64,000 bases of DNA, taken from the NCBI RefSeq assembly GCF_000761485.1, contig NZ_JPMX01000042.1, forward strand, positions 25,230 to 89,229, given 5' to 3'. The translations under genes and the position numbers were made by a program. The DNA is from Modestobacter caceresii. GTDB lineage: Bacteria > Actinomycetota > Actinomycetes > Mycobacteriales > Geodermatophilaceae. The notes under the pieces were generated by a model. The model saw only the letters and a list, made by a program, of their open reading frames with translations, did no database searches and was not told the origin of the DNA. This document shows, one piece after another, positions 21,365-32,741 of this stretch. The stretch's first letter is position 1, and every line of letters begins with the position of its first letter.

Positions 21365-23992
21365 TCACACTCCGGCGCGTGGTCGCGGCAGCGGCACGGG
21401 GACGGGTGCGGGGGCGACCACCGCGGGACCGGGGTGGCGCAGCAGGGCGGCCACCTCGGCGACGGTCAGGCCGGTCGGCAGCACCGGGCCGGAGACGGCG
21501 ACCACGCCCTGCACGCGCAGCTCGTGGAGCAGCTGCCGGGAGTCGATCTCCTTGGCCACGGTGGACACCTGGAAGTCGCGGGCACTGCGGCCGATCGCGC
21601 CGAGCACCTCCAGTGTCCGGTCGTGGTTGCCGCCGGCCGACAGGTTGCGGACGTCGACCATCACCACCTCCAGGGGCAGCCGGGAGAGCTGCGACCACAG
21701 GGTGGAGCCCATGCCGTAGTCGTCCAGCCCGATCCGGACCCCGGTCCGGTGCACGGCGTGCAGCGCGGGGATGAGGGCTGCCGACGAGGTCTGCAGCACC
21801 TCCTCGGTGACGAAGAGGGTGAGCCGGGGAGGTGCCAGGTCGACCGCGGCCAGCGCCACGGCCACCTCGCCGGGCAGCTCGTCGGCGTGCACCAGCCCCG
21901 CAGGCAGGTCGACGGCGACGAGCAACTGGTCGTCGAGGGCGGCGACGTCGGCGCAGGCCCGGGTGATCAGCCACTGCTGCAGGGCCGCGGTGCAGCCCTG
22001 CCGTTCGGCGGCGGCCCACAGCTCCGCCGCGGGCAGCGCGCCGAGCTCGGGGTGCAGCCACACGGGCTGGGCGTGCAGCGCGGCGAGGATGCCGGTGTCG
22101 CCGTTGGCGATGGTGTCGAAGCGGAGCTGGACCTCCCCGTCGGCCAGGGCGGTGGCGACGGAGCTGCTGGCCGCGGCCTGCGCCACCCGGTCGTCGGTGT
22201 GCAGCCGCCAGCAGCCCTTGCCGGCCCGCTTGGCGGCGCCGAGGGCGGCGTCGGCCTGGCGGAAGGCGAGCTGGCCGCCCCCGGGGTGCACCCGGCAGAT
22301 GCCCACGCTGGCGCCGACGGTGAAGGTGCGGTCGCCGATCCGGCAGGGCCGGGCGAGCACGTCGAGCACCCGCTGGGCGGCCTCGACGGCGGCGTCCTCG
22401 CCCCCGGCCAGCAGCACGGCGAACTCGTCGCCGCCGAGGCGGGCGACCAGGTCGTCGGTGCGCAGCAGGCCCTGGAGCCGCCGGGCCACCTCGACCAGCA
22501 GCAGGTCACCGGCCTCGTGGCCGGCGGAGTCGTTGACCGCCTTGAACCCGTCGAGGTCCAGCACCAGCAGGGACCGCTCGGCGGTGGTCGCCGACCCGGC
22601 GGCCATCTCCTGGAAGAGCAGTGCACGGTTGGGCAGCCGGGTGAGGTGGTCGGTGAACGCCATCCGCTCCAGCTCCTGCTCGCGGCGTCGCCGGGTGGTC
22701 ACGTCCCGCAGGTGGAGCACCCGCCGCCCGCTGCCGGGGCGCTCGTGGTGGGTGACCTCCAGGTCCCGGCGCTCGCCCTCGGGGCCGTGCAGCCGCAGGT
22801 GGACCACGGGGGTGACCCCGCCGGCCGCGGTGGTCAGCTCACGGCGGACGCGGGGGCGGTCCTCCTCGTGCAGCAGGTCCAGCAGCAGGGGGTGCGGGTC
22901 GGCCTCGACGACCCCGAGCAGGGTCCGGGCCGCGGGGGAGGTGAACTCGAGGCGGAGCTCGGCGTCCACGATCGCCACGCCGTCCGAACTGGCCTCGACC
23001 AGGCCGCGGAAGTCCTCCTCGCTGCGCAGCAGGTCCTCCTCGATGCGGTCGCCGTCCCGGATCCGCATGAACAGCCGCACCAGCAGCAGGAGGACCACCA
23101 CGGCGGTGCAGGCCAGCGCGCCGTCGGGGACGCGCAGGTCGAGCAGCAGGGCGGTCACCAGGGTGACCGGCACCCCGATCAGGGCCAGGACGTCGATGAC
23201 CAGGCCGGCGGAGTTCACCGTCGGGGTGGAGTCGGCGGCGGAGGACCGGCCCGGGACGGCGCTGGCCAGCTGGACGGCGTGGACGGCGGCGACCAGTGCG
23301 CCGGCGATCGCCACGTCGGCCGCGGCGGCCCACGTCGTGCCCGGCTGCACGATGTGCACGGCGAGCAGCGCCGAGGCCAGTCCCAGCAGCCCGGTCATGA
23401 GGATCATCGCGGTCGCCGGACGCCGGACGGCCGCGGTCGACACCGTGCACAGGGCCCCGACGACGCCCACGGCCACCGCGGGGTAGATGCCGTAGGCGAG
23501 CACCAGGGGCAGCAGGTCGGGGTCGATCGCGCCCGGCGTCACTGCCGGGGCCAGCACCAGCACGTCGGCGACGACGACGAGGGCGAGGGTGACCAGCACC
23601 CCGTCGATCACCAGGATCGGCCAGCGGGTGCCGCGGACCCGCCCACCGATCAGCGCGGCGCTGACCGTCGGCCCGAGGGCCGCGATGAGCACGAGCAGGT
23701 CACCCAGGCCCAGTTGGCCGAGCGCACCGCCGACGCCCAGCCCGGTGACCAGGCTGGCGCAGGTGAAGAGCAGGGAGCTGGCGCCCAGGACCTGCCAGGG
23801 CAGCCGGTCGCGGACGTCCATCCCACGGGTGAGCCGGGCGCAGCGCCAGGCCGCCCACCCGCCGAGCGCAGCCAGCACCAGGTTGTCCCACTGCGGCACG
23901 GCCCCGTGCGGACTGGCCGGCACGGCGATGCCCAGGGCGACCAGCGCGCCGAGCAGCACCAGGCTCAGCGGTGCCCGCCTGACCTGGTTCAC
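21365..23992 (-). CDS. Membrane diguanylate cyclase with PAS, intact GGDEF and degenerate EAL domain
   Basis: 875 residues. About nine membrane helices fill residues 5-300; a PAS domain follows (about 320-435); then GGDEF with an intact ARLGGDEFAVLL site near residue 520; then an EAL-like domain. In the EAL domain the EALLRW block is replaced by HAQPVW, the metal-site DDFGTG reads DDYGMG, the catalytic lysine position in DVLKID reads VVMVD, and the late Glu block AEGVE reads AKEID. So it should make c-di-GMP but not cleave it; the EAL part may be a sensor. GTG start overlaps the upstream gene by 4 nt. Confidence 0.88.
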   Translation of the reverse strand: MNQVRRAPLSLVLLGALVALGIAVPASPHGAVPQWDNLVLAALGGWAAWRCARLTRGMDVRDRLPWQVLGASSLLFTCASLVTGLGVGGALGQLGLGDLLVLIAALGPTVSAALIGGRVRGTRWPILVIDGVLVTLALVVVADVLVLAPAVTPGAIDPDLLPLVLAYGIYPAVAVGVVGALCTVSTAAVRRPATAMILMTGLLGLASALLAVHIVQPGTTWAAAADVAIAGALVAAVHAVQLASAVPGRSSAADSTPTVNSAGLVIDVLALIGVPVTLVTALLLDLRVPDGALACTAVVVLLLLVRLFMRIRDGDRIEEDLLRSEEDFRGLVEASSDGVAIVDAELRLEFTSPAARTLLGVVEADPHPLLLDLLHEEDRPRVRRELTTAAGGVTPVVHLRLHGPEGERRDLEVTHHERPGSGRRVLHLRDVTTRRRREQELERMAFTDHLTRLPNRALLFQEMAAGSATTAERSLLVLDLDGFKAVNDSAGHEAGDLLLVEVARRLQGLLRTDDLVARLGGDEFAVLLAGGEDAAVEAAQRVLDVLARPCRIGDRTFTVGASVGICRVHPGGGQLAFRQADAALGAAKRAGKGCWRLHTDDRVAQAAASSSVATALADGEVQLRFDTIANGDTGILAALHAQPVWLHPELGALPAAELWAAAERQGCTAALQQWLITRACADVAALDDQLLVAVDLPAGLVHADELPGEVAVALAAVDLAPPRLTLFVTEEVLQTSSAALIPALHAVHRTGVRIGLDDYGMGSTLWSQLSRLPLEVVMVDVRNLSAGGNHDRTLEVLGAIGRSARDFQVSTVAKEIDSRQLLHELRVQGVVAVSGPVLPTGLTVAEVAALLRHPGPAVVAPAPVPVPLPRPRAGV

Positions 23993-26664
23993 CTCGGCAG
24001 TCCGTCGTCCGCGGCCCGGGGCAGCCCCGGTGCCGAGGTGGGCACCGGCGCCCCGCCCAGCCCTGGGAGCTGGGTGGTCAGCGCGGCCTCGTCCAGCGGC
24101 CGGGCCAGCAGGTAGCCCTGGATGAACCGGTGGCCCATGTCGCGCAGCAGCTGCAGCTCGGTCGCCGTCTCGACGCCCTCCACGACCACGACGAGGCCCA
24201 GGCTGGTGCCCAGGTGCAGGACGGAGCTGCACAGTGCCCGGCGCTGCGGGTCGGTCTCGACGTCGGCGAGGAACTGCCGGTCCATCTTCAGGACGTCGAT
24301 CGGCAGGCCGACGAGGTAGGCCAGCGAGGACCAGCCGGTGCCGAAGTCGTCGACGGCGATCCGGACACCCAGCCGCCGCAGGGCGGCCAGGTCGTCGGTC
24401 ACGTGCTCGTCGTCCAGCAGCACCGACTCGGTGATCTCCAGGACCAGCCGGGAGGCGGACAGCCCACTGGACCCCAGGGCCTGGAGCACGTCGGAGACCA
24501 GCTCGCCGCTGCGGACGTGCCGCGCCGAGACGTTGACCGCCACCGCCAGGTCCGGGTGCGGGAGTGCGGCGACCGTGGCGGTGGCCTCGGCGAGCACCCA
24601 CCGACCCAGTTCGGTGATCAACGCCGACTCCTCGGCCAGGGGCACGAACTCCGCCGGCGACACCTCGCCGTACACGGGGTGCCGCCAGCGCAGCAGCGCC
24701 TCGACCGAGACGGTGCGGTGCAGCGCCAGGTCGACGACCGGCTGGTAGACCAGCCGCAGCTGACCCTCGGCGAGGGCCTGGTGCAGGTCGGTGCGCAGGG
24801 TCTCCTCGCGCTGCTGGGTGATCCGGAGGGCGTCGGAGTGCCGGCGGACCCGGCCGGGACCGGCGGCGCGGGCGCTGCGCAGCGCCAGGTCGCCCCAGCG
24901 CAGCGCGTCCCCGGCGTCCGCGTCGGCGTCCAGGGGAGTGACGCCGGCCGCGGCGGTCAGCCGCAGGGTGCCGTTGCCGATGGCGACCGGCTCGACGGCG
25001 GCGACCAGCCGGCCGGCGATCACCTCGGCGTCGGCCACCGTGCCGGAGACCAGGACGGCGAACTCGCTCACCCCGGAGCGGGCCAGCCAGTCGTCGCCGC
25101 GCAGGGCCCGGGCGAACCGGGTGGTGAGCTCGCGCAGCACCGCGACGTCGTCGCCCGCAGGGAGCCCGTCGACGCCCAGCACGACGAGGGAGGCGCTGCT
25201 GGCCGACGGGGCGCGGAGGGTGGCGGCGAGGCGCTGGGTCAGGGCCGAGCGGTTGGGCAGGCCGGTCGCCGGGTCGCTCGTGCTGAAGGTGACCACGGGC
25301 TCGGCCGGCTGCGGGGCACTGGCGCTGACGTCCCGGCAGTAGAGCACCAGGGCGCCCACGTCGGGGTCGCCGCGCAGGTCGCGGACCTGGGACTGGATGA
25401 GTCGCCATCGACCGTCGAGGTGCCGCACCCGCGCCGTCCGGGTCTTGGTCTCCATCGGGTCGGTCGAGGCGGCGCTGAGGGCGGCGACCAGGCCCGGGGC
25501 GTCGTCGGGGTGGACGGCGGCGGCGATCGAGTGGCCGACGATGCGCTGGGGGTCCAGGCCGAGCAGCGCGGTGATGGCGGGGGAGACCCACTGCACCTGC
25601 AGCTGGTCGTCGAGGATCAGCACCGGGTCGGCGCTGCCGCGCACCAGCGTGCGGAAGTAGGCCTCGCTGCGCTGCAGGTCGGTGGTGAGCCGCTGCTGGG
25701 TGCGCCAGGACGCCACCTGGTGGGCCAGCAGGGCGCCCAGCCCGAGCACGCCGAGCGTCGTCCCGAAGATGGTGAGCGTCCCGGTGACCGGGACGCTGAG
25801 CAGCAGCAGCGAGCCGCCGGCCAGCGCGGTGGCGTGCGGCAGCATGGCGCCGAGGGCGGAGCCGTCCACGCGCCCGCGGTCGGCGGTGGGCTGCGGTCGG
25901 TCGGCGTGGCAGGCGACCACCAGCAGGGCCAGCCCGAGGACGCTCAGCGCGCAGGCCAGGTACTGGACGTAGCCCGGCCCGGAGGCGATCGAGGAGCACG
26001 CGCCGGCCAGTGCGGTGGCGACCTGGGAGGCGAACAGCAGCCAGCCGACCGGACGCTGGGCGGCGGGGCAGACCGCGATGAGGACCAGCGAGAAGCCGGT
26101 GCCGAGGGCGATGCTGGACAGCAGCGCGAAGAGCGCGATCGTCTCCGACAGGGCCAGTACGCCGTCCCGGGCGATGGTCAGGTGGTAGAGCGTGTGCACG
26201 GTCAGCAGGTCGGCGATCACGAAGAGCGTGAACATCGTCGCCACCTGCGCCCGGGCGGCCCGGAGCGACGCCCGGTCGAGCATCCGCAGGATCGCCACGA
26301 CCACCAGCAGCTGACCGGGGACGCTGCCCAGGGCGGTCTGCCCCCAGGGCAGCACCGACGCGGCGGCCAGGGCACCGCCGGCGCCCACGGCGACCGAGGC
26401 GGCGTACCAGCGCCAGCCGGCCGGGTGGGCGCTCCGGCGCCCGGCGCGGGTGAGGAGGACGAGCACCCCGACGACGGCGAGGAAGTTCACCGTCACCGCC
26501 ACGGTGACGGCGGTCCGTCCCGGCAGCAGCCCGGCGGACAGGGTGGCGCAGGCCGCCAGGACGGAGAGCAGCAGTGGCCGGCTGAGCGTGCGGACGGCGG
26601 CCGGGCCGCCCCGCGTCGGAGCGGCCATGGCCCGCATGGGTGCGGCGAGGGCTCCGGAGGTCAC
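23989..26664 (-). CDS. Membrane c-di-GMP phosphodiesterase with PAS, degenerate GGDEF and intact EAL domain
   Basis: 891 residues. Roughly nine membrane helices to residue 300, a PAS domain (about 315-430), a GGDEF-like domain in which the signature reads SGVSEF near residue 533, then a complete EAL domain: VEALLRWRHP near 655, NVSARH, ITESVLL, DDFGTGWSSLAYL, the lysine in DVLKMDRQF, and EGVET near the end. It should hydrolyse c-di-GMP to pGpG at the membrane. GTG start. It is first in a two-gene operon; the product downstream has the opposite set of intact sites. Confidence 0.9.
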   Translation of the reverse strand: MTSGALAAPMRAMAAPTRGGPAAVRTLSRPLLLSVLAACATLSAGLLPGRTAVTVAVTVNFLAVVGVLVLLTRAGRRSAHPAGWRWYAASVAVGAGGALAAASVLPWGQTALGSVPGQLLVVVAILRMLDRASLRAARAQVATMFTLFVIADLLTVHTLYHLTIARDGVLALSETIALFALLSSIALGTGFSLVLIAVCPAAQRPVGWLLFASQVATALAGACSSIASGPGYVQYLACALSVLGLALLVVACHADRPQPTADRGRVDGSALGAMLPHATALAGGSLLLLSVPVTGTLTIFGTTLGVLGLGALLAHQVASWRTQQRLTTDLQRSEAYFRTLVRGSADPVLILDDQLQVQWVSPAITALLGLDPQRIVGHSIAAAVHPDDAPGLVAALSAASTDPMETKTRTARVRHLDGRWRLIQSQVRDLRGDPDVGALVLYCRDVSASAPQPAEPVVTFSTSDPATGLPNRSALTQRLAATLRAPSASSASLVVLGVDGLPAGDDVAVLRELTTRFARALRGDDWLARSGVSEFAVLVSGTVADAEVIAGRLVAAVEPVAIGNGTLRLTAAAGVTPLDADADAGDALRWGDLALRSARAAGPGRVRRHSDALRITQQREETLRTDLHQALAEGQLRLVYQPVVDLALHRTVSVEALLRWRHPVYGEVSPAEFVPLAEESALITELGRWVLAEATATVAALPHPDLAVAVNVSARHVRSGELVSDVLQALGSSGLSASRLVLEITESVLLDDEHVTDDLAALRRLGVRIAVDDFGTGWSSLAYLVGLPIDVLKMDRQFLADVETDPQRRALCSSVLHLGTSLGLVVVVEGVETATELQLLRDMGHRFIQGYLLARPLDEAALTTQLPGLGGAPVPTSAPGLPRAADDGLPR

Positions 26665-26785
26665 GGATCAGTTGTCGGACCGCGGGCGGCCGGACTGCAC
26701 CAGTGGCCGGCGCCACTCACCCGAAGGGGCGGGGGCGGGGGTGGAGGGGCGAGGGCGGAGGGGGCGACCGCTCAGTCGGGCCGGT

Positions 26786-27013
26786 TCACCAGCGCAGGGG
26801 CTGGGTCGCCCGGGAGTCGGCGGTGCGGCAGACCCGGCAGTGACCCCAGGTGGCGATCCGCACGAGGCTGCTGGGCTCACCGCACTCGGGGCAGTCGACC
26901 ATCCCCTCGGCGCCGGGCCGGGGCTCGCCGGCGTGCCGGGCGTGGACGGCCGCGTCACCGGCGCACGGGCAGTCGAGGTGGGCTTCTGAGCAGCGTGCAT
27001 GGTCGGTTGCGAT
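26786..27013 (-). CDS. Small cysteine-rich (zinc-ribbon-like) protein with uncertain, possibly ATC, start
   Basis: The C-terminal 38 residues (MVDCPECGEPSSLVR ... WGHCRVCRTADSRA) hold two CxxC pairs typical of a zinc ribbon. Upstream in the same frame are more Cys and His residues (ARCSEAHLDCPCAGD), but no ATG, GTG or TTG precedes them. A perfect AGGAGG (27025-27020) lies 6 nt before an ATC codon (27013-27011), which would give 75 residues. If ATC is not used, the ATG at 26902 gives 38 residues. Function unknown. It diverges from fdhA. Confidence 0.5.
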   Translation of the reverse strand: MATDHARCSEAHLDCPCAGDAAVHARHAGEPRPGAEGMVDCPECGEPSSLVRIATWGHCRVCRTADSRATQPLRW

Positions 27014-27167
27014 GGGGCGCCTCCTGGTGTCCCCGACGACGCTACTCAGGCGCACCAGCCCCCCGTGCCGCGTCGTCCTCCCGGAGGCGGGCCCGCGCGG
27101 AGGGACAGGGCGACCCGCGGGAGGGCTCGGCGCGCGAACGGTGCCTCCGGGTGGCAAGCTCGTCGGG

Positions 27168-30100
27168 GTGAAGACGTGGCTGGATGCATGGCCGGTGTTC
27201 CGGCAGCTGACGGGTCCTGACCCGCTGGGGCGTGGCAAGGCCGCGCGCAGCAAGGCGACAGAGCAGGTGGTCAGCCGCACGGCCACCGCCGACAGGGTGG
27301 TGCAGTCGGTCTGCCCGTACTGCGCGGTGGGCTGCGGCCAGCGGGTGTTCGTCAAGGACGAGCAGGTCGTGCAGATCGAGGGCGACCCGGACTCGCCGAT
27401 CAGCCGCGGCCGGCTCTGCCCCAAGGGCAGCGCCAGCAAGCAGCTGGTCACCAGCCCGAGCCGGGTCACCACGGTCAAGTACCGCCGTCCGCACGGGACG
27501 GAGTGGGAGGACCTCGACCTGGACACGGCGATGGAGATGATCGCCGACCGCGTGCTCGACGCCCGCCGCAAGGGCTGGCAGGACGAGGTCGACGGGCACC
27601 AGGTGAACCGCACGCTGGGCATCGCGAGCCTCGGCGGGGCGACCCTCGACAACGAGGAGAACTACCTGATGAAGAAGCTGTACAGCGCCATGGGCGCTGT
27701 ACAGATCGAGAACCAGGCCCGCATATAGCACTCCGCGACGGTCCCCGGTCTGGGGACCTCGTTCGGTCGTGGCGGCGCCACGAACTTCCAGCAGGACCTG
27801 GTGAACTCCGATTGCATCGTGATCGAGGGTTCGAACATGGCCGAGTGCCACCCGGTCGGCTTCCAGTGGGTCATGGAGGCCAAGGCGCGGGGCGCGAAGA
27901 TCGTCCACATCGACCCGCGGTTCACCCGCACCAGCGCGCTGGCCGACCTGCACGTGCCGTTGCGCGCGGGCACCGACATCGCCTTCCTCGGCGGGCTCAT
28001 CAAGTACGTCCTCGACAACGACCTGGACTTCCGCGAGTACGTCGTCGCCTACACCAACGCGGCGGCGATCCTGCGCGAGGACTTCCAGGACACCGAGGAC
28101 CTCGACGGCCTGTTCTCCGGCTTCGACCCCGAGACCGGGCAGTACGACGAGACCACCTGGCAGTACGAGGGCGTCAACGTGCCCTCCTCGGCCGGTCAGC
28201 GCTCACCGAGCCAGCCCGGCGGGTCGGCCTTCCGCGAGGACGACCGGCCCGACGACACCGCGGACGACGGCACCGACGACGAGACCGAGAGCGTCAAGGA
28301 GGCCGACCAGCAGCAGGGCGCGCAGGGCTCGGCCGACATCCACGGCAAGCCGAAGCGGGACGAGACGCTGCAGCACCCGCGGTGTGTCTTCCAGGTGCTC
28401 AAGCGGCACTACGCCCGGTACACCCCGGAGATGGTCAGCGACATCTGCGGCATCGAGCCCGAGGTGTTCCTCAAGGTCGCCGAGTGGGTCACCGCCAACA
28501 GCAACCGCGAGCGGACGACCGCGTGGGTCTACTCGGTGGGCTGGACGCACCACACCGTGGGCGTGCAGTACATCCGGACGGCGTCGGTGCTGCAGGCGCT
28601 GCTGGGCAACATGGGCCGCCCGGGCGGCGGGATCCTGGCGCTGCGCGGGCACGCGAGCATCCAGGGCTCCACCGACATCCCGACGCTGTTCAACATCCTG
28701 CCCGGCTACATCCCGATGCCCCACGCCCAGCAGCACACCGACCTGGACAGCTTCTGCGCCTCCAGCGACGACCGGGTGGGCTTCTGGGGCAACATGCGCT
28801 CGTACACGACGAGCCTGCTCAAGTCCTGGTGGGGCGACGCGGCGCAGCCGGAGAACGACTTCGCGTTCAACTACCTGCCCCGGCTCACCGGCGACCACGG
28901 CACGTACACCACGGTCGCCGACATGATCCAGGGGAACGTGCCCGGCTACTTCCTGGTCGGGGAGAACCCGGCGGTGGGCAGCGCCAACGGCCGGATGCAG
29001 CGGTTCGGCCTGGCCAACCTGGAGTGGCTGGTCGTCCGCGACCTGCAGATGATCGAGTCGGCGACGTTCTGGAAGACGGCCCCGGAGATCGAGACCGGCG
29101 AGCTGGTCACCGAGGACATCGCCACCGAGGTCTTCTTCATGCCGGCGGCCACGCACGTGGAGAAGGAGGGCACCTTCACCCAGACGCAGCGGCTGCTGCA
29201 GTGGCGGCACAAGGCGGTCGAGCCGCCGGGCGAGTGCCGCAGCGACCTGTGGTTCTACTTCCACCTGGGCCGCAGGCTGCGGGAGAAGCTCGCCGGGTCG
29301 ACCGACCCGCGGGACCGTCCGCTGCTGGACCTCACCTGGGACTACCCGACGCACGGGGAGCACGACGAGCCCAGCGCCGACGCCGTCCTGCGGGAGATCA
29401 ACGGCTGGGGTCCGGACGGCGAGATGCTCTCGACCTACCTGGACATGAAGGACGACGGGTCGACCACCGGCGGCTGCTGGATCTACACCGGCGTCTACGC
29501 CGACGGGGTCAACCAGGCCGCCCGGCGCAAGCCCGGGCGGGAGCAGGACTGGGTGGCCGCCGAGTGGGGCTGGGCCTGGCCGTCGAACCGCCGGGTGCTC
29601 TACAACCGCGCGTCGGCCGACCCCGACGGCAAGCCGTGGAGCGAGCGCAAGGCCTACGTCTGGTGGGACGAGGAGGCCGGCACGTGGACCGGTCACGACG
29701 TCCCCGACTTCGAGGCGACCAAGCGACCGGACTACGTGCCGCCGGAGGGCGCGACCGCGCAGGCCGGCCTCGGCGGTGCCGACCCGTTCGTCATGCAGGC
29801 CGACGGGAAGGCCTGGCTCTACGTGCCGGCCGGTCTGGCCGACGGCCCGATGCCGGCGCACTACGAGCCGGCCGAGTCGCCGGTGGAGAACGCGCTCTAC
29901 GGCCAGCAGGCCAACCCGGGTCGGGAGGAGATCCAGGGGGCGTGGAACCGGGGCAACCCGCCGCGCAGCACGGTCTACCCCTACGCGATGACCACCTACC
30001 GGCTGACCGAGCACCACACCGCCGGTGGGATGAGCCGAACGCTGCCCTACCTGTCGGAGCTGCAGCCGGAGTTCTTCGTGGAGGTCAGCCCACAGCTGGC

Positions 30101-30485
30101 CGAGGAGCGCGGGCTGGAGAACGGCGGCTGGGCGACGCTGATCAGCGCCCGGACGGCGATCGAGGCCCGGGTGCTGGTCACCGAGCGGATCCGGCCGATG
30201 AAGCTCAAGGGCGGCCAGGTCGTCGAGCAGATCGGCATCCCCTACCACTGGGGCGAGCAGGGACTGTCCACGGGCGACTCGGGCAACGACCTGTTCGGCG
30301 TGGTGATGGACCCGAACGTGCACATCCAGGAGACGAAGGTCGCCACCTGCGACATCCAGCCCGGGCGGCGTCCGCGCGGCAAGGCGCTGGTGCAGTACGT
30401 GGAGGACTACCGGATCCGGGCGGGCGTCCAGTCGGGCCTGGTCCCCAGTGGCGGCCGGGCCCCGATCGAGGAGGGGACGAGCTGA
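27168..30485 (+). CDS. fdhA: Formate dehydrogenase catalytic subunit, selenocysteine encoded by in-frame TAG
   Basis: 1105 residues if TAG 27726-27728 is read as selenocysteine (residue 187). The frame is the same before and after the TAG, and the sequence around it, ENQARI-U-HSATVPGLGTSFGRG, matches the NQARV-U-H site of FDH-N/FDH-O. The [4Fe-4S] cysteines are C49, C52, C56 and C84; MGD-binding motifs follow. An acidic Asp/Glu-rich insert is near residues 340-405. No twin-arginine signal is seen at the N-terminus, so catalysis is probably on the cytoplasmic side. The enzyme oxidises formate to CO2 (or the reverse) using Mo or W. GTG start. Read conventionally it would look like two broken ORFs. 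Confidence 0.93.
27726..27758 (+). promoter_or_regulatory. UAG selenocysteine codon with bacterial SECIS hairpin
   Basis: The TAG is followed by 18 nt and then GGTCT, closed by a perfect 7-bp stem GGTCCCC (27740-27746) / GGGGACC (27752-27758). E. coli fdhF, as I recall it, has a GGUCU loop at the same 18-nt distance after its UGA, and this loop is what SelB recognises. The hairpin is therefore a convincing SECIS element attached to UAG. Confidence 0.88.
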
Positions 30486-30520
30486 TGCGGCTCGACCCGA
30501 TGGAAGAGGAGCGCTCGTGA
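30485..30520 (+). CDS. Possible 11-codon coupling peptide between fdhA and fdhB
   Basis: ATG overlaps the fdhA stop by one base (TGATG), the frame reads MRLDPMEEERS and stops at TGA, overlapping the fdhB GTG start by three bases (GTGA). It could pass ribosomes from fdhA to fdhB. It also contains the fdhB ribosome site GGAAGAGGAG, so it may be incidental. Confidence 0.3.
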   Translation: MRLDPMEEERS

Positions 30521-31644
30521 CGACCGTCAGCTCGGCGAGCCCGGCGCTCACCGGCAACGACCCGGCCAACCGGCTCTACGGTCCGCTGCCCGATGTGAGC
30601 GGGGAGGCCGGCTACGCGGAGGACCACCCCGCGCGGGTGGGCTTCTTCACCGACACCTCGGTGTGCATCGGCTGCAAGGCCTGCGAGGTCGCCTGCAAGG
30701 AGTGGAACACGCTCCCGATGGACGACGCGGACGGCAACCGCGACGCCATGGCGCTGACCGGGATGTCCTACGACAACACCGGCATGCTCGGGGCCAGCTC
30801 CTGGCGGCACGTGGCGTTCGTCGAGCAGAGCCGGGCCGTCGACCTCCCCATGCCGGGGGTCGGGCTGCCGGGCGCCGGTGGCGCGGGTGCCGCCGCACCC
30901 GCGGCCGGCTGCGGCAGCGGCGGGGGCTGTGGGGGTGGCTCGGTCGACCCGCACGCCGTCTCGGCCGGTGGCGACGCCGACGGCGGGCTGACCGCGCAGT
31001 CCAGCGTGCTCAACGCCGAGGCGCTCAGCGAGTTCGACCCGCAGACCGGCCACTCGGCCGACCGGGAGATCCGCTGGCTGATGTCCTCGGACGTGTGCAA
31101 GCACTGCACGCACGCCGGCTGCCTGGACGTCTGCCCGACCGGGGCGCTGTTCCGCACCGAGTTCGGCACCGTGGTCGTGCAGGGCGACATCTGCAACGGC
31201 TGCGGCTACTGCGTGCCGGCCTGCCCCTACGGCGTCATCGACCAGCGCAAGGACGACGGCCGGGTCTTCAAGTGCACGATGTGCTACGACCGGCTCACCG
31301 ACGGCCTGCAGCCGGCGTGCGCCACCGCGTGCCCCACCCAGTCGATCCAGTTCGGCGACCTCGACGAGCTCCAGGCCCGGGCCGATGCCCGGCTGGCGAC
31401 GCTCAAGGAGCAGGGTGTGGAGACCGCCCGGCTCTACGGGCGGGACGAGGACGACGGCGTCGGCGGTGCCGGGGCGTTCTTCCTGCTGCTCGACGAGCCG
31501 GAGGTCTACGGACTCCCGCCGGACCCGATCGTCACCACCCGGGACCTGCCGTCGATGTGGAAGCACGCCGTCGGCGGGGCCGCCATGGTGGTCGGCTTCG
31601 CGCTCTCGGCCGTGCTCGGTTCCCGGAAGGGGCTGCGCCGATGA
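30517..31644 (+). CDS. fdhB: Formate dehydrogenase iron-sulfur subunit
   Basis: 375 residues with four ferredoxin-type cysteine clusters: C50-x2-C53-x2-C56-x3-C60; VCKHCTHAGCLDVCPTGAL; ICNGCGYCVPACPYGVI; and CTMCYDRL ... CATACPT. They would carry electrons from FdhA to the membrane subunit. A Gly/Ala-rich insert with two extra cysteines (CGSGGGCGGG) lies near residues 125-150. A C-terminal membrane helix (HAVGGAAMVVGFALSAVLG) anchors it, as in FDH-N beta subunits. GTG start. Confidence 0.93.
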   Translation: MTTVSSASPALTGNDPANRLYGPLPDVSGEAGYAEDHPARVGFFTDTSVCIGCKACEVACKEWNTLPMDDADGNRDAMALTGMSYDNTGMLGASSWRHVAFVEQSRAVDLPMPGVGLPGAGGAGAAAPAAGCGSGGGCGGGSVDPHAVSAGGDADGGLTAQSSVLNAEALSEFDPQTGHSADREIRWLMSSDVCKHCTHAGCLDVCPTGALFRTEFGTVVVQGDICNGCGYCVPACPYGVIDQRKDDGRVFKCTMCYDRLTDGLQPACATACPTQSIQFGDLDELQARADARLATLKEQGVETARLYGRDEDDGVGGAGAFFLLLDEPEVYGLPPDPIVTTRDLPSMWKHAVGGAAMVVGFALSAVLGSRKGLRR

Positions 31645-32741
31645 CCGAGGGACTGGCGACGCCGGGCGCCGGTTGGCGCCGGGCCGACGGCCCGCCGGCG
31701 CAGGCGCGGGAGAAGAAGCGGCGCAAGGGCGGCCGGCGCGGCGGTGGCCGGGACGGCGACCCGACCGTCGACGAGGCCGAGTTCACCTCGTACTACGGCC
31801 GCCCCATCATCAAGCCGCCGGTGTGGAAGACCCCGGACGTGCCGCTGTACCTGTTCCTGGGCGGCGCGGCGGGCTCGTCGGCAGTGCTCGGCGCGATCGC
31901 GGACGTGACCGGGCGCCCGGCGCTGACCCGGGCCGCGCACTACACCGCCGGCGGCGGGGCGCTGGCCTCGGTGGTCTGGCTGATCCACGACCTCGGGCGG
32001 CCGGCGCGGTTCCTGCACATGCTGCGGGTGATCAAGCCGACGTCGCCGCTGTCGGTGGGCTCCTACATCCTGGCGCCGTTCAGCGCCCTCACCGCGGCGA
32101 CCGCGGGGATCCAGCTGCTGGAGGCCTTCCCCGGTCTGCAGAAGTTCGGGCTGCGCCGGATCGCCGGCTGGTTCCCTGCGCTGCGGAAGGTCGTGGGGAG
32201 CACCTCTGCGGTCTTCGGTGGTCCGATGACCACGTACACGGCGGTGCTGCTGGCCAACACCGCGGTGCCGTCGTGGCACGAGCCGTACAAGGAGCTCCCG
32301 TTCGTCTTCGCCGGCTCCGGGATGGCGGCCGGCGGTGGCATCTGCATGGCGTTCACCCCGGTCGACGAGGCCGGGCCCGCGCGGAAGATGGCGGTCGCCG
32401 GCGCGGCGGTCGAGCTGGCCGCGATGCACAAGGTCGAGCACGACCACGGCATCGTCGGTGAGCCTTACCAGCTGGGCAAGGCGGGCACCATGATGAAGGC
32501 CGCGAAGGCCTGCACCGCCAGCGGTGCCGGGCTGACCGTGGTGGCCGGCCGCACCCGGGTCGGTGCCGCGGTCTCCGGTGCGCTGCTGGCCGCCGGCTCG
32601 CTGCTCACCCGGTTCGGGGTCTTCGAGGCCGGCATGGCCAGCGCGCGGGACCCGAAGTACACGGTGGTCCCGCAGCGGGCACGGATGGCCGCCCGCGAGG
32701 AGCAGGCGCGCCAGGACGAGGCCCGCTCCGTCACCCGCTGA
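31641..32741 (+). CDS. NrfD-family membrane subunit of formate dehydrogenase
   Basis: 366 residues; ATG overlaps the fdhB stop (ATGA). A basic, Lys/Arg/Gly-rich N-terminal segment of about 45 residues precedes KTPDVPLYLFLGGAAGSSA and about eight membrane helices in the NrfD/PsrC pattern. This is not the haem-b FdnI type, so quinone reduction would be of the NrfD kind. A strong terminator follows, closing the fdh operon. No selA, selB, selC or fdhD gene lies next to it. Confidence 0.9.
   Translation: MTEGLATPGAGWRRADGPPAQAREKKRRKGGRRGGGRDGDPTVDEAEFTSYYGRPIIKPPVWKTPDVPLYLFLGGAAGSSAVLGAIADVTGRPALTRAAHYTAGGGALASVVWLIHDLGRPARFLHMLRVIKPTSPLSVGSYILAPFSALTAATAGIQLLEAFPGLQKFGLRRIAGWFPALRKVVGSTSAVFGGPMTTYTAVLLANTAVPSWHEPYKELPFVFAGSGMAAGGGICMAFTPVDEAGPARKMAVAGAAVELAAMHKVEHDHGIVGEPYQLGKAGTMMKAAKACTASGAGLTVVAGRTRVGAAVSGALLAAGSLLTRFGVFEAGMASARDPKYTVVPQRARMAAREEQARQDEARSVTR

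Follow-up and report, generated by a model that had tools for sequence, protein, structure and literature searches.

The formate dehydrogenase locus

The window, a stretch of 64,000 nucleotides of Modestobacter caceresii, carries on its forward strand a formate dehydrogenase alpha-subunit gene, fdhA, followed by open frames for an iron-sulfur (beta) subunit and for a protein with an NrfD-type membrane anchor (Table 1). The original prediction of a single fdhA frame, broken only by a TAG codon with the flanking residues NQARI and HSATV, agreed with the translation: the frame encodes 1105 residues when codon 187, its sole internal stop, is read through. Standard annotation had been expected to give two broken open reading frames, and translation with table 11 yielded these at 26850-27728 and 27801-30485. 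With codon 187 entered as Cys, FdhA matched the actinobacterial formate dehydrogenase model NF041513 with 1961.8 bits (cut-off 1400) and the FDH-N alpha-subunit model TIGR01553 with 957.8 bits (cut-off 814.2), and the Pfam domains Molybdop_Fe4S4, Molybdopterin and Molydop_binding were identified; 4Fe-4S and molybdopterin domains together with a predicted selenocysteine (Sec) site followed by His are the features expected of an alpha subunit. In an alignment to PDB entry 1h0h (chain A), codon 187 falls on the X of QARIXHSATV, which we take to be the selenocysteine ligand. The claim that the TAG lies on the Sec/Cys ligand of FDH-N/FDH-O was therefore upheld as regards the site and not as regards the enzyme class, the best fit being to NF041513 rather than to FDH-N. 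Inspection by eye revealed no twin-arginine motif, which FDH-N and FDH-O carry at the N terminus, at the start of FdhA.

The beta-subunit frame scored 180.1 bits against the FDH-beta model TIGR01582, below its cut-off of 334.7, and the true start of the gene probably lies somewhat downstream of 30448. The NrfD and NrfD_2 matches of the third frame fall within residues 375-660 of 692, with the Pfam match beginning at about 31785, and the gene itself probably starts close to where the beta-subunit gene ends. The gene order fdh, 4Fe-4S, nrfD is common to the window and an Arthrobacter plasmid, which also bears selA, selB and selD. A long minus-strand frame with PAS, GGDEF and EAL domains lies upstream of fdhA, at positions 21365-26716 (-); two large plus-strand open reading frames opposite it gave no Pfam match.

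Table 1. Positions of the features in the window and of the tRNA-Sec and candidate selenoprotein genes on other contigs
Feature	Position	Strand	Basis
fdhA, formate dehydrogenase alpha subunit	27168..30485	+	single frame; profile and Pfam matches
In-frame UAG, predicted Sec codon 187	27726..27728	+	alignment to 1h0h; TAG or TGA in relatives
Predicted SECIS: hairpin of six pairs, apical loop GGUCU at 27747-27751	27741..27757	+	covariation
Iron-sulfur (beta) subunit, open frame	30448..31644	+	Pfam Fer4_11, Fer4_7
Open frame whose final part holds an NrfD-type membrane anchor	30663..32741	+	NrfD 43.9 bits, NrfD_2 35.9 bits
tRNA-Sec (CUA) of the window's genome	C64:12295-12386	-	Rfam match
Second tRNA-Sec (UCA) of G059	L021 / L081:1173-1263 (G059:C17)		81.8 bits
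Deiodinase-like candidate of the window's genome	L340:728-1531 (G000:C79)		T4_deiodinase 47.2 bits
Peroxiredoxin-like candidate of the window's genome	L338:508-1176 (G000:C72)		
SBP_bac_5-like candidate loci of relatives	L293:460-2145; L086:1911-3725; L308-L325		

Codon 187 within and outside the Geodermatophilaceae

The codon at the site was surveyed in a set of 112 Geodermatophilaceae genomes from 12 genera, 100 of which gave FDH matches at E 1e-100. TAG occupied the very codon 187 in all 30 family loci that were fetched, and each family match spanning residue 187 contained a single TAG by stop count, the position of the codon itself having been read in the 30 loci. The stop-free FDH matches fall short of residue 187; one match (G034) begins at residue 204, past the site, and the copy of another genome (G080) is in pieces around it. 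An extra TGA reported for G009 was the terminal stop and was set aside. At this threshold FDH was not found in the remaining 12 genomes, which include all nine of the genera g6, g7 and g8, so that the older state of fdhA within the family is not seen directly.

Codon 187 was also read in the best 80 of at least 587 confirmed named relatives, where it was TAG in 22 and TGA in 58. All 22 TAG relatives among these 80 bear Geodermatophilaceae genus names (Modestobacter, Blastococcus, Geodermatophilus, Klenkia and Goekera), and all 58 TGA relatives are other actinobacteria. In an FDH tree of the 80 relatives and the window, rooted on one TGA copy, the 23 TAG copies (the 22 and the window's) formed one group with a support of 0.998, placed beside seven Actinomycetospora copies with TGA. 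A single in-frame stop in an otherwise intact gene would suit a gene at the onset of decay into a pseudogene, or an error in sequencing; the same TAG, however, persists in named genomes whose protein identity is as low as about 74%, the sequence composition is coding-like on both sides of it and third-position covariation occurs within the hairpin described below, which leaves this explanation extremely improbable. The retention of TAG in relatives by itself makes a sequencing error very unlikely.

Decoding machinery in the genome of the window

Within the window no tRNA was identified by ARAGORN, and no Rfam match exceeded the gathering score. The genome to which it belongs (139 contigs, estimated to be 100% complete) contains one tRNA-Sec, with the anticodon CUA (CTA in the DNA), the discriminator base G73 and an encoded CCA end. 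This tRNA matches the Rfam model over its full length; some of its pairs are non-standard, and two of these lie where the acceptor stem has its inner end. The only further match above the Rfam tRNA-Sec cut-off was a tRNA-Ser. A UCA tRNA-Sec was not among the matches in this genome, the five others at E 0.001 being tRNA-Ser (three), tRNA-Gly and tRNA-Leu. Downstream of selC, on the same strand, follow selA (407.6 bits) and selB (271.7 bits), and selD (385 bits) is located on the same contig about 8 kb off, all three above the curated cut-offs; the SelB protein carries a winged-helix domain at its C-terminal end. The checks proposed with the original prediction, namely a CUA anticodon in selC, the absence of a UCA form and the presence of selA, selB and selD, thus all came out as anticipated.

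ARAGORN labelled the CUA tRNA as tRNA-Pyl, presumably from its anticodon, as would be the case if UAG were read as pyrrolysine. However, the same tRNA fits the tRNA-Sec model with 64.2 bits (cut-off 47) and adjoins selA and selB, the best match in this genome to the pyrrolysyl-tRNA synthetase model reached 22.2 bits against a cut-off of 178.15, and relatives from other families have TGA at the site; insertion of pyrrolysine is accordingly regarded as exceedingly improbable.

A rough composition-based call over the window and the first 30 kb of contig C64 gave 48 open reading frames, 44 ending in TGA and 4 in TAG, with fdhA counted among the four and its second half among the 44. By this rough call UAG ends 3 of the 47 other frames, and it seems still to end other genes in the genome. 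This points to context-dependent, local recoding and not to the reassignment of the stop codon that had been claimed.

Anticodons of tRNA-Sec across the family

A tRNA-Sec was detected in 108 of the 112 family genomes. The anticodon was CUA in 102 of the 110 matches (101 and that of the window's genome) and UCA in eight, seven of which belong to g6, g7 and g8 and the eighth of which is the second tRNA-Sec of G059. The seven native UCA forms and the CUA form agree in the core of the anticodon stem-loop except for two bases of the anticodon itself and one base pair next to the loop, which is swapped. Two matches, both CUA, were obtained in the incomplete genome G037 (G037:C168 and G037:C25). A SelA tree of 30 chosen loci with one outgroup placed the UCA genera apart from the CUA genera, with a support of just 0.658 for the CUA node. 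One change of codon, UGA to UAG, at the root of the genera with a CUA tRNA-Sec is the simplest reading of these sequences and a likely one: the switch looks single because three sister genera keep a UCA tRNA-Sec, and it falls short of proven because of the support of the CUA node.

Genome G059, which is matched to Geodermatophilus sp. LHW52908 on the ground of identical FDH coordinates, has a native CUA tRNA-Sec and a single selA match, and TAG is found in both its FDH and its UGSC genes. Its second, UCA-bearing tRNA-Sec is situated near a transposase frame in a stretch that resembles actinobacterial plasmid stretches at 78-83%, one of which adjoins selA, selB and selD. A composition scan of the 69-kb contig carrying this tRNA returned many weak candidates and no convincing one for a UGA-encoded selenoprotein, and none of the 11 AhpC/TSA matches of the genome contained an in-frame stop.

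A predicted SECIS hairpin downstream of the codon

A SECIS-type hairpin begins 15 bases past the first base of codon 187. Its six pairs were unbroken in all 81 FDH sequences compared (the window and 80 relatives; 62 distinct), in which the loop read GGUCU (70 sequences), AGUCU (10) or AGUUU (1). One pair, 27743-27755, varies freely (CG in 37, UG in 17, UA in 15, GU in 10 and GC in 2 of the 81 sequences), with both bases at synonymous third codon positions. In a test with 500 shuffles, for which 50 of the 81 sequences were hand-picked for diversity and 31 left out, the helix exceeded every shuffle in percentage paired, in doubly changed cells and in covariation score, and was unremarkable in the number of pairs changed on both sides (228/500) and in pair types (30/500). 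The next pair outward was broken in 34 of the 81 sequences, and in the minimum-energy fold the outer helix was just 67.7% paired; conservation is thus limited to the inner six pairs, and the outer helix is not supported. The fold alone was unexceptional for its composition (z = -1.83; 8 of 200 shuffles folded equally well), and z values at the other candidate sites discussed below were -1.48 and 0.03 (deiodinase-like), 0.05 (peroxiredoxin-like) and -2.73 and -2.04 (SBP_bac_5-like), folding by itself being a weak test for a SECIS. The hairpin is identical with TAG and with TGA, indicating that the switch altered the codon and the tRNA and not the signal.

These data also bear on low-level suppression of UAG by an ordinary tRNA and on a short functional product of fdhA. 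Either would leave unexplained why the tRNA-Sec has a CUA anticodon, why codon and anticodon agree throughout the family and why the TGA relatives share the hairpin, and an explanation of this kind is considered very unlikely.

Further candidate UAG-Sec genes

AhpC/TSA-type proteins were surveyed in seven chosen genomes, and two genes of this type with an in-frame TAG at a redox-active site were found in the genome of the window. One is a deiodinase-like gene (FGSVT(TAG)P), whose TAG is aligned with the TCP-motif Cys of two deiodinases of known structure, presumably Sec-to-Cys forms. This gene is present in 4 of the 112 family genomes (E 1e-15), and the codon is TAG in the window's genome and in two genes of G004, and TGA in G071 (L341), a UCA genome; in G005 the codon marks a break between two contigs (L344 and L347), each of which carries one half of the gene with a TAG beside it. 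The peroxiredoxin-like gene contains RGDW(TAG)PYCC, with TAG also in G101; the site is absent from the 120 homologues listed out of 139, and no Cys form was found among them. It is probably the AhpC of Blastococcus saxobsidens mentioned in the available passages of PMC5330540, since the database copy P0163, from a strain of that species, is a shortened member. The deiodinase-like and peroxiredoxin-like genes are put forward as candidate UAG-Sec genes. UGSC-family proteins gave no match in this genome at E 1e-15.

An SBP_bac_5-like gene located between selC and selA was identified in six genomes, with TAG in G111, G104, G058, G048 and G063 and TGA in G074, the stop (*) being embedded in GEGHW*VIDxPGPW. 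A family-wide search at E 1e-80 retrieved 17 genes in 14 of the 112 genomes, with no match in the genome of the window; the stop was TAG in 15 (all in CUA genomes), TGA in one (G074, UCA) and TAA in one (G075, UCA), and so fits the anticodon of its own genome in 16 of 17 genes. The TAA of G075 (L319) was considered as an intermediate between UGA and UAG and set aside: a second in-frame stop and the UCA anticodon make decay the likelier explanation, and this copy has probably decayed. The genes of G058:C18 and G048:C1 (L313 and L314) appear to be disrupted by frame changes past the site. Of the best 120 of 656 database homologues, 118 have their start directly behind the codon and 116 end in GNAC. 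This pattern suggests a widespread stop at the site and database proteins that have been called too short. The family would thus represent a candidate selenoprotein family. A DNA pattern for it found nothing in viral contigs, a limited literature search returned no report of it as a selenoprotein, and Table 1 of PMC13188914, whose substrate-binding proteins are SaoX, SaoB and BtuF, does not list the family.

Proposed decoding of fdhA and its significance

On this evidence, UAG codon 187 of fdhA is very likely decoded as Sec by the genome's own CUA tRNA-Sec, guided by the predicted SECIS. SelA would convert Ser-tRNA-Sec(CUA) into Sec-tRNA-Sec with selenophosphate provided by SelD, and SelB, bound to the GGUCU hairpin, would deliver the charged tRNA to the UAG, where release factor 1 would compete with it. 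In the enzyme, Sec187 would then bind the Mo or W of the cofactor through its selenium, and UAG elsewhere would remain a stop. The change from UGA to UAG would probably have been a single event in the lineage from which the CUA-bearing genera arose. A broader proposal, somewhat favoured at present, is that the whole selenoproteome of the main Geodermatophilaceae genera passed from UGA to UAG in that one step while SECIS, SelA and SelB were kept, with three sister genera retaining the old code and one Geodermatophilus having regained a UCA tRNA-Sec, so that it may read both codons.

If true, this would be a natural code swap of which both ends are still alive and visible in orthologous genes, namely fdhA when compared with relatives outside the family, and the deiodinase-like and SBP_bac_5-like genes within it. 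Where codon and anticodon have changed together in one clade whose near relatives stand on both sides of the change, the movement of a genetic code can be tested directly by codon and tRNA swaps between sister species. There is also a consequence for annotation: the standard code splits FdhA in two, and proteins of two further candidate families seem to be truncated in databases at or after such a codon.

Comparison with known systems

Sec is nearly always encoded by UGA. For Geodermatophilus and Blastococcus, 75Se or mass-spectrometric proof of UAG-encoded Sec was reportedly given by Mukai et al. in 2016. In the available passages of PMC5330540, CUA tRNA-Sec is described in three Geodermatophilaceae genomes of its set, Mukai et al. 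2016 (doi 10.1002/anie.201511657) is cited for UAG-encoded FDH and UGSC proteins, and AhpC in Blastococcus saxobsidens is added; a passage of PMC5133445 states that Sec is encoded by UAG in Blastococcus, and one of PMC10778597 states that UAG and UAA are recoded to Sec in some species. The link to UAG-encoded Sec in this family, which the original prediction made, is corroborated by the CUA tRNA-Sec in the available part of PMC5330540 and by the family genus names borne by all the TAG relatives. A match to 'amber codon' in the available text of PMC9686282 was discarded as the title of a cited reference only. A limited search, mostly at the level of listings, retrieved no further study devoted to UAG-encoded Sec in the Geodermatophilaceae, and none on selenoproteins of Modestobacter was found in a limited literature search. 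UAG-encoded Sec with a CUA tRNA-Sec is already known in the Geodermatophilaceae, and fdhA adds a case; the additions made here are the breadth of the switch, the UCA sister genera, the genome with two tRNAs and the extra genes, all of which other papers may hold.

The present case shares family, codon and anticodon with the Geodermatophilaceae system as reported in the passages available, with FDH among its selenoproteins, and differs from it in coming from Modestobacter. CUA anticodon and UAG codon are also common to pyrrolysine decoding, whereas the pyrrolysyl-tRNA synthetase is below its cut-off here. Among solved formate dehydrogenases (1h0h, 1kqf and 6sdv), the site corresponds residue for residue to that of 1h0h; in contrast to 1h0h, FdhA is encoded with UAG, belongs to the NF041513 subfamily and contains an extra stretch at about residues 335-389. 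Canonical UGA decoding is alike in selA, selB, selC, selD and a SECIS-type hairpin, but here the codon is UAG, the anticodon is CUA and the competitor would be release factor 1 instead of release factor 2.
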